The notes beneath the pieces were generated by a model. The model worked only from the letters and a program-made list of their open reading frames with translations, was not told the origin of the DNA and ran no database searches. DNA of 64,000 nt from the NCBI RefSeq assembly GCF_017352215.1, contig NZ_CP071444.1:62001-126000 (forward strand). The letters run 5' to 3'. Origin of the DNA: Alkalibacter rhizosphaerae. Lineage in GTDB: Bacteria > Bacillota > Clostridia > Eubacteriales > Alkalibacteraceae. Of this stretch, positions 20,847 to 53,508 are shown in pieces. Position numbers and translations under genes: made by a program. Each line of letters begins with the position of its first letter. The first letter of the stretch is position 1.

Positions 20847-20880
20847 AAAAATCCCGGTTCGATCTCGAACCGGGATTTTT
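20847..20880. terminator. Bidirectional terminator between putP and usp
   Basis: AAAAATCCCGGTTCGA pairs perfectly with TCGAACCGGGATTTTT around a three-base loop, giving T-tracts on both strands for the convergent genes. Confidence 0.92.
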
Positions 20881-52082: not shown

Positions 52083-52111
52083 TTTACAAAAGTCGGTCCT
52101 TTCGGTATAAT
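52083..52111 (+). promoter_or_regulatory. Promoter of the degenerate recombinase gene
   Basis: TTTACA (52083-52088) and TATAAT (52106-52111) with a 17-bp spacer. The expected start of transcription falls at the left edge of the palindrome that follows. Confidence 0.75.
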
Positions 52112-52116
52112 AAAGA

Positions 52117-52152
52117 TATAATTGCGCATAATATATAATATGCGCAATTATA
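52117..52152. repeat. 36-bp palindrome with a dif-like core
   Basis: Perfect 14-bp arms, TATAATTGCGCATA (52117-52130) and TATGCGCAATTATA (52139-52152), enclose ATATATAA. The inner 28 bp (52121-52148) can be read as a dif layout: left arm ATTGCGCATAA, centre TATATA, right arm ATATGCGCAAT. The left arm shares 9 of 11 bases with the E. coli dif arm GGTGCGCATAA and the centre is that of B. subtilis dif. It could be a Xer crossover site, an operator, or a 5' mRNA stem. Confidence 0.7.
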
Positions 52153-52178: not shown

Positions 52179-53087
52179 ATGCCCTATAATGAATTGATCG
52201 CATCTTTTTCTGATTACCTGGCGCACAAGTTGCAGATTCGCTCCGTCAAAGCCTATAAATATGATATGGAGAGCTTTTTAGGATTCATGGAAAAAAGAAG
52301 CAATGTTGATTTTTCCAAATGGGATGACGAGCAAAAGCTGGTGTTTTTTAGAAAGATAAGACAACCGGATTTTTATGCCTATATACATTACTTGAAAGAC
52401 GAACACCATAATTCAGATAAGACCATCAATCGGAAACTGACGTCCTTGCGAGCATTTTACCAATTTTTGATCGATGACCGTGGTTGTGATGGTAAAAATC
52501 CCATCGATGAGATCCCACGTTATCATTTACATGAGAAAGGTCCCAACTATTTGGAGGAATCCGTACTGGAACGGATTTTTGAAAAGGTAAGGATCCGAAA
52601 CAAATATCGAGACATGGCCATTTTGATGCTGATCGCAGATTGTGCATTAAAGGCATCACAAATCGTTTCCTTAAAGTTGACAGACTACGACGGCAGCAGT
52701 TTACAGATAAAAGAGGGAAGTATCCGATTGAGTCCTGCAACGATCAACGCTTTGGATTCCTATATAAATCTAGAACGAAAAAATTCCAATTCCACATATT
52801 TGTTTGTCAGTCAGAAGAATGAATCGATTAGTATACGAACTATTCAACATCTTATTAAAAACATAAAAACGGATTTGGATCTGGACCAGCCTTTGACATC
52901 GGAAGCAATACGAAATACCACCATTTTGAAATTGATGAAGGACAATGTGGACCATACCGAAATAAAAAGATATTTTGGCTACAAGAAAACCCTTCAACTG
53001 GAAAAAACCCTTTCTAACTCCCAATGGTCCGAAGAAAAGCCGGAATTTGATTTTTCCAAAGTTGCCCGTAAAACACCAAAAAAATGA
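52179..53087 (+). CDS. Catalytically degenerate tyrosine recombinase (Xer-like)
   Basis: A 302-residue protein with the two-domain layout of Xer recombinases: an amino-terminal core-binding domain (about 5-105, RSVKAYKYDMESFLGFM and NRKLTSLRAFYQFL) and a catalytic-type domain (about 125-290). The catalytic set is mostly lost. Aligned with the intact gene at 53576, the first Arg is Lys (CALKASQ versus GIRVSE), the beta-hairpin Lys is Glu, the H-x-x-R His is Glu with the Arg kept (SEAIRN), GHKD is GYKK, and the Tyr position is Leu. The frame is uninterrupted with a good promoter and GAGAGGAG site, so it looks retained rather than decaying. It may bind DNA without cutting. Confidence 0.82.
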   Translation: MPYNELIASFSDYLAHKLQIRSVKAYKYDMESFLGFMEKRSNVDFSKWDDEQKLVFFRKIRQPDFYAYIHYLKDEHHNSDKTINRKLTSLRAFYQFLIDDRGCDGKNPIDEIPRYHLHEKGPNYLEESVLERIFEKVRIRNKYRDMAILMLIADCALKASQIVSLKLTDYDGSSLQIKEGSIRLSPATINALDSYINLERKNSNSTYLFVSQKNESISIRTIQHLIKNIKTDLDLDQPLTSEAIRNTTILKLMKDNVDHTEIKRYFGYKKTLQLEKTLSNSQWSEEKPEFDFSKVARKTPKK

Positions 53088-53508
53088 AGCCCATATTTGC
53101 GATTTAAGCGGTTTTTTTTGATGAGGGTATACCTAAACACCTGTGAATTATGGGCTTATTTTCATTCAGAGCCTTTAAAAGCCTTTTAGAGGGTCCCAGA
53201 TAAAAAATGCAGCAGAAGAGAGCAAATGAGATGAAAGGTGTTCAACTAAACATGAAGAGAACTGATGAGATCGATATAGGATCTGTTTGTAGATTCATGA
53301 AAATATGAAGGATCGAATGACATAGGGTTGAGATCAAATTAGATTACAAGGAATGGTGCAAGTAATCAAGCTGGACCCAGGAAAGTTATGATCGTTTGTG
53401 ATTTGTTATTAAAAGCAGCAAATCAGCGCTAAAATGCCTACATGTTTACCTTAAACTTTTGTTTAACGGAAAGTTATATCTATTCTTCTCTCGTGTTTCA
53501 TCTTGTGT
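53088..53508 (+). other. Gene-poor spacer between the two recombinase genes
   Basis: About 420 bp hold no convincing gene. Near the left end, AAGCCCATA (53088-53096) can pair with TATGGGCTT about 50 bp later, followed by A/T-rich DNA, a possible weak terminator. A small TTAAAC-TTTT-GTTTAA repeat lies at 53451-53466. The DNA between is unstructured to my eye and full of stops in all frames. Confidence 0.5.

Follow-up and report, generated by a model that had tools for sequence, protein, structure and literature searches.

A palindromic dif-type site beside a degenerate Xer gene and a second candidate dif beside a XerS-like gene in Alkalibacter rhizosphaerae

In several described Xer systems the recombinase gene and its site are close neighbours. 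XerH/difH and the archaeal XerA/dif comprise a single Xer protein, with the dif adjoining its gene at the terminus, and the XerS/difSL module of streptococci and lactococci has an asymmetric dif, in single copy, beside the recombinase gene at the terminus; XerCD/dif is the system of E. coli and B. subtilis. Xer proteins have furthermore been reported to act at the terminus in ways beyond recombination. The locus of Alkalibacter rhizosphaerae described here lies in a 64-kb stretch of the genome (the window) and holds a catalytically degenerate Xer-family gene (the partner) and a XerS-like gene, together with two Xer-type sites, A and B (Table 1). Such an arrangement, a dead Xer with A beside a XerS-like enzyme with B, was not recognised in the literature searched, which comprised open-licence papers. 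We think it fairly probable that A is a dif-type site of the partner lineage, that the XerS-like enzyme and B probably resolve chromosome dimers, and that the dead partner and the arms of A have been retained. All results are sequence comparisons, with relatives that are mostly represented by draft genomes.

Table 1. Features of the locus, in window coordinates
Feature	Position	Strand	Remarks
Promoter-like TTTACA-17-TATAAT of the degenerate Xer gene	52083..52111	+	11/12 consensus positions
Site A, 36-bp palindrome, dif-type	52117..52152	.	28-bp core 52121-52148
Degenerate Xer-family protein (partner), 302 aa	52179..53087	+	only the second Arg of R-K-H-R-H-Y kept
Site B, asymmetric, difSL-like, best candidate for the working dif	53441..53476	-	core 53445-53472
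XerS-like tyrosine recombinase, 368 aa	53576..54682	+	complete R209 K233 H304 R307 H330 Y340

Two Xer genes and two Xer-type sites

Phage_integrase matches in the genome number only two, the products of the two genes of Table 1, and neither scores over the XerC or XerD equivalog cut-off. The downstream enzyme reaches 188.7 bits against the NCBI XerS model (cut-off 267) and is thus XerS-like, not XerS by the curated model; the R-K-H-R-H-Y set is complete in all 20 XerS-like proteins aligned. At the same positions the partner has K, a gap, E, R, Y and T, one catalytic residue of six, and hence lacks the active site of a working tyrosine recombinase. This ruined active site was absent from the original prediction, as was site B. 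The best NCBI model for the partner is XerA, at 91.7 bits, under the cut-off of 220, and a structure prediction from three partner sequences, with a mean pLDDT of 60, was set aside. A PDB chain labelled 'Ribosome-associated translation inhibitor RaiA' (9i5v_14) matches Xer-type queries over ~200 residues; the label may be wrong.

Site A reads TATAATTGCGCATAATATATAATATGCGCAATTATA, with 14 perfect pairs around an 8-base middle. It sits directly 3' of the -10 box and is followed by AGGAG and then by the ATG at 52179, so that the succession of promoter, perfect arms and ribosome site originally predicted for 52083-52152 was borne out. Promoter-like sites as a class show no enrichment in the region (4, compared with 6.0 +/- 2.5 in shuffles). 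The core divides as 11+6+11 with the centre TATATA; its left arm is identical to that of E. coli dif at 9 of 11 positions, again as predicted, and its right arm at 7 of 11. Five palindromes of the window have a perfect arm of at least 12 bases, compared with two in total, none reaching 14, in 20 first-order resamples. Long perfect palindromes with arms of 21 and 24 bases lie at 20863 and 62354 of the window. The idea that A is a terminator was set aside: the terminator-like match is on the minus strand only, and no gene was seen for it to serve.

The core of A occurs once in the single-contig genome of 2,449,552 bases, the other pattern matches having three mismatches, and the arm pattern is present in one copy per genome in three congeneric genomes, A. 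rhizosphaerae included. With dnaA at 1,391,672 the antipode falls at ~166.9 kb, and A, at 114.1 kb, is 53 kb away from it. In 20 stretches sampled around the genome, GC skew has one positive and one negative side, with values close to zero at 1.45 and 2.38 Mb; inside the window, values are mostly above zero as far as 52-54 kb, except for near-zero ones at 20-26 kb, and stay about zero from there on. The skew pattern of genome and window therefore puts A at the terminus, where it is present once, near the skew switch and opposite the origin, as a dif would be; a single copy near the skew terminus is what the original prediction had named as support for a dif. It is important to point out that the resolution of the skew is too coarse to separate A from B, 1.3 kb apart. 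The canonical Firmicutes dif pattern gives 2 matches in this genome at up to two mismatches, compared with 8 in the control.

Site B, TAACTTTCCGTTAAACAAAAGTTTAAGGTAAACATG, was found by aligning the regions upstream of xerS. It is a single-copy site 100 bp upstream of the XerS-like gene, and TTTCCGTTAAA, its strong half, is similar to the half of difSL given in PMC5357621, TTTCCGAAAA. Being an asymmetric dif-like site, in one copy beside the gene at the terminus, it corresponds to the site of a XerS/difSL module, and B is the leading candidate for the dif in use in the A. rhizosphaerae lineage. Site A is left with no cognate active recombinase in the genome, the partner being catalytically degenerate and the XerS-like enzyme most likely having a site of its own. 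In the window, A and B are equal at 10 of 22 arm bases.

Sites A and B across the order

XerS-like loci of the order number 23, and B was assigned in 20 of them; it was not found in G021 and G038, which are short contigs, or in G031. Counts of partner and A leave out these three as well as G003, whose contig begins at xerS; for G038, a partner-like gene on a different contig was covered by the sister-family profile scan only. Both sites were first picked with same-family profiles or by symmetry, an overlap that the later tests remove only partly. With profiles built without the tested genus, the assigned B was the top match in those 20 loci, with scores of 22-44 (3-18 for the next place) and with G018 as the weakest held-out match, at 13.7 compared with 4.2 for the next place; site B of G018 had scored 4.4 in the first profile. 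Outside the order, a B-like score (24-29) was obtained in 3 of 10 loci. In Anaerotignum, Tyzzerella and other Clostridia (L095 6918, L097 8452, L099 8381, L103 8399), where the profile finds no site B, a 36-bp palindrome, TTTCGTAA...TTACGAAA, recurs at ~2.3 kb downstream of the XerS-like gene.

Skew changes sign at the XerS-like locus in G006, G014, G015 (with one stray distant negative stretch) and G028. It is still weakly positive 6-17 kb past the locus in G002 and weak in G030 and G018, and G005 has no usable upstream side. The cumulative skew maximum of the fetched locus is closer to B than to A in 11 of the 12 loci with both sites and lies at most 250 bp from B in four (L109, L110, L114, L116); in L113 it is closer to A, and in L093 it coincides with the locus end. 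Little weight is given to this proximity because the strand bias of xerS pulls the maximum toward B. A conserved orientation of B relative to the skew, hinted at by the first loci, was rejected, G011 and G017 being reversed.

Site A goes with the partner gene. An A-type palindrome lies upstream of the partner in 12 of the 13 XerS-like genomes that have one, and ranks first or second among the palindromes of its locus in 10 of these 12. The thirteenth genome (G005) has a truncated partner and an A-like site (L106 9076-9111) with a centre of five bases instead of six, which should spoil strand exchange and to which the even-axis palindrome score is blind. The loss of the repeat in relatives keeping the gene, which would have spoken against the original prediction, was thus not observed: the repeat is present in all 13, once with an altered centre. 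No symmetric site besides B was found in the six partnerless XerS-like loci (G007, G010, G017, G018, G026, G032). A palindrome near 310 of L120 (G017) was rejected as A; with a score of 4.6, an overlap with a reading-frame end and a run of T's after it, it resembles a terminator. In G004 (L109 4165-6797) a degenerate and an intact partner gene are divergent with A between them, 185 bp upstream of the intact second copy.

The original prediction had proposed A as a possible crossover site of the XerS-like enzyme encoded 1.4 kb away, and the single copy, symmetry and place near the skew switch of A would suit it, as would the position of B just ahead of xerS if B were only an operator of that gene. 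This proposal was dropped once the second conserved site upstream of xerS had appeared, and a working XerS dif at A now seems very unlikely. Site B adjoins xerS and is present in all six partnerless XerS-like loci, where A was not found; it is B, not A, that resembles difSL; and in genus g10, where xerS is 5-11 kb away, B has kept its place immediately downstream of the partner, close to the skew switch. Moreover, A accompanies an intact partner homologue in f4, a sister family within this order, where a strong XerS-like match was obtained in 1 of 40 genomes.

The 40 f4 genomes contributed 21 loci. The partner homologue has an intact R-K-H-R-H-Y set in every one of them, and the A palindrome lies upstream of it in 20, of which 17 were recognised by symmetry and 3 by a profile of those 17; the exception, G053, is an intact-partner locus with no A by symmetry or profile. 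One f4 A site, TATAATTGCGTATAACGTAGGTTATACGCAATTATA, is identical to that of the window at 19 of 22 positions in the 11-bp arms. Applied to the window, a profile made from f4 only finds exactly two sites above 9, A at 24.9 and B at 19.1; minus its closest member it gives 19.3 for B, 14.7 for A and 10.5 for the next place. That B outscores A under the reduced profile indicates that A and B resemble each other. On XerS-like loci the f4 profile has A as the top match in only 7 of 12. Of five complete f4 genomes, G008, G035 and G048 show a clear sign change of the skew at the locus and G040 a weak one; in G012 the switch comes only ~22-60 kb past it. The f4 genome G031 carries its XerS-like gene on an 11.9-kb contig with no site B, on which a stretch (L124, 11109) scores 18.9 on the A profile; this contig is perhaps an element using A.

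In f4, A and the intact homologue have the look of a dif module at the terminus with a single recombinase, and the best reading of A is that of a dif serving such a system in the partner lineage. The original description of A as dif-like would then be right by ancestry and wrong as to the enzyme, A being dif-type but probably not the dif of the XerS-like protein, for which B is the better candidate. Likewise, the suggestion that the symmetry of the arms suits a single-recombinase system looks right for the older recombinase, that of the partner lineage, rather than for the XerS-like one.

The genomes can be set out as a series. Family f4 has an intact homologue with A; f2 (G006, G014) has an intact partner, A, B and the XerS-like gene; Alkalibacter, g10, G013, G024 and G030 have the same elements with a degenerate partner; and G007, G018, G032 and others have B and the XerS-like gene with neither partner nor A. 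This looks like the stepwise displacement of one Xer/dif system by another. In the proposed course, an older single-recombinase system, an intact partner homologue with a palindromic dif A at the terminus, would have been displaced by a XerS-like enzyme with its own dif B, located across the partner gene from A; the older recombinase would have lost its catalytic residues, its protein and the arms of A being kept. In the protein tree of the partner lineage (midpoint root) branches are long, and orthology is not settled by it.

Possible present roles of the dead partner and site A

Partner proteins are ~40% identical among three Alkalibacter species, and 20 of 22 arm bases of A are kept in each pair of these species. 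The partner gene has a dN/dS of 0.09 (NG86) or 0.12 (YN00) for G015-G028, the sole pair with dS below 1, and of 0.15-0.17 in two further pairs with dS above 1. The conserved arms despite the low protein identity, together with the low dN/dS, suggest that binding is probably still under selection. Across seven genera, arm identity is 0.84 for B and 0.61 for A, and in parallel the partner proteins diverge far more than the XerS-like ones.

The dead recombinase might equally point to A as a non-functional relic, as might its centre, equal at 2-4 of 6 positions among the three congeners where that of B is equal at 5-6 of 6. The notion that the centre drifts since it no longer recombines fits the three Alkalibacter species, but the A centre is invariant in the two-copy genus g10 (3/3) and in the sister-family genus g7 (13/13 compared). 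With the centre also kept in g10, the arms preserved beside such divergent proteins and purifying selection on the partner gene in the one testable pair, a relic seems quite improbable.

Our preferred reading, a dif-type site still bound by the dead partner, has a partner dimer occupying the two equal arms of A. Since the site comes directly after the -10 box, a bound dimer would repress the partner's own promoter; autorepression is our best guess for the predicted present role of A, an operator function, the other option of the original prediction, being plausible, and A would perhaps also mark the terminus. Alternatively, A could be purely an operator, the degenerate Xer being an autorepressor with no role at the terminus. 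The same position after the -10 box speaks for this, as does purifying selection, seen in one pair, on a protein whose active site is dead. In genus g10, furthermore, a second copy of A lies 5-11 kb from the first (L114 12738, L115 7551, L116 4861), and in the two genomes read (L115, L116) it precedes by 38-43 bp the start of a gene that we take to be Tex-like, so that in this genus the degenerate Xer may regulate this gene as well. The genes between the two g10 copies differ, and in 2 of 3 genomes the copies have equal central six bases in the same orientation; active A sites 5-11 kb apart in one orientation would risk deletion, whereas dead ones would not. Against a pure operator, A stands anywhere between 14 and 185 bp ahead of the assumed gene start, on differing sides of the ribosome site as judged by eye, and the fixed place at the terminus is not explained by this role itself, though the neighbouring B could account for it. 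We regard a pure operator as a tentative possibility, with a substantial minority chance of being correct.

Site A could also act as RNA: it would form a 14-bp stem in the leader, a possible 5' stem or attenuator for the gene, and in sequence an RNA stem looks the same as a DNA palindrome. The arms, however, follow the Xer half-site pattern, with C at position 9 and A at position 14 in 24 of 24 half-sites, and across genera A is placed differently (by eye) relative to promoter and ribosome site; an RNA function appears extremely unlikely.

A further alternative is that the dead Xer, while bound at A, has a non-recombining function at the terminus, for example as an SMC unloader or as an accessory subunit of XerS at B. 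Such a role has a precedent in B. subtilis, where XerD is described as unloading SMC at the terminus (PMC12322038, PMC8242196, PMC10945525), and it would fit the finding that A, partner and B have remained neighbours where xerS itself has moved away. Three of the six partnerless loci, unlike the partner genomes, have a near-symmetric B. Site B matches at 11-12 of 12 arm positions in L112 (8848), L118 (2281) and L119 (8536) and at 7-9 in partner genomes, possibly a sign that the partner once shared B; the trend is weak, two of the three loci being from one genus. On the other side, A is present once per genome in A. rhizosphaerae and two congeners, whereas a need for several unloading sites has been reported. 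A terminus role of this kind is rather unlikely. The more far-reaching version, in which a resolution system is caught in replacement across one order and the dead Xer bound at the old dif serves the terminus without recombining, either regulating XerS or unloading SMC, until it is finally lost, is speculative; we hold it to be unlikely, with some chance of being right.

Relation to known Xer systems

Were this replacement real, a natural catalysis-dead Xer with its gene, its site and its place beside the likely working dif would separate the two roles of Xer proteins without a laboratory mutant, and the order would document, step by step, how one dif/Xer system displaces another. The comparison also yields predicted dif sites for a group of Clostridia; in the A. 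rhizosphaerae genome the canonical Firmicutes pattern is not above control.

One of the closest described systems is XerS/difSL. In common with it are a XerS-like recombinase, here of 368 aa, and a complete active site, and B, beside the gene at the terminus, is asymmetric with a TTTCCG..AAA half as in difSL (PMC5357621). The present locus differs in that the enzyme stays below the curated XerS cut-off, in that a second, dead Xer and a second site adjoin B, and in that B reads 11+6+11 whereas difSL is described with an 11-bp centre (PMC5357621). The single Xer proteins of XerH/difH and archaeal XerA/dif, with dif next to the gene at the terminus, are paralleled by A and the intact partner of f4; the partner of A. 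rhizosphaerae, unlike them, is without the catalytic residues, and although XerA is its best model the score is far from the XerA cut-off. With XerCD/dif, site A has in common the greater part of its left arm, the right arm being less alike. Finally, a non-recombining Xer at the terminus, such as the SMC unloader XerD of B. subtilis, would explain why a dead Xer is conserved, but here there is one site only, and it lies beside a promoter.
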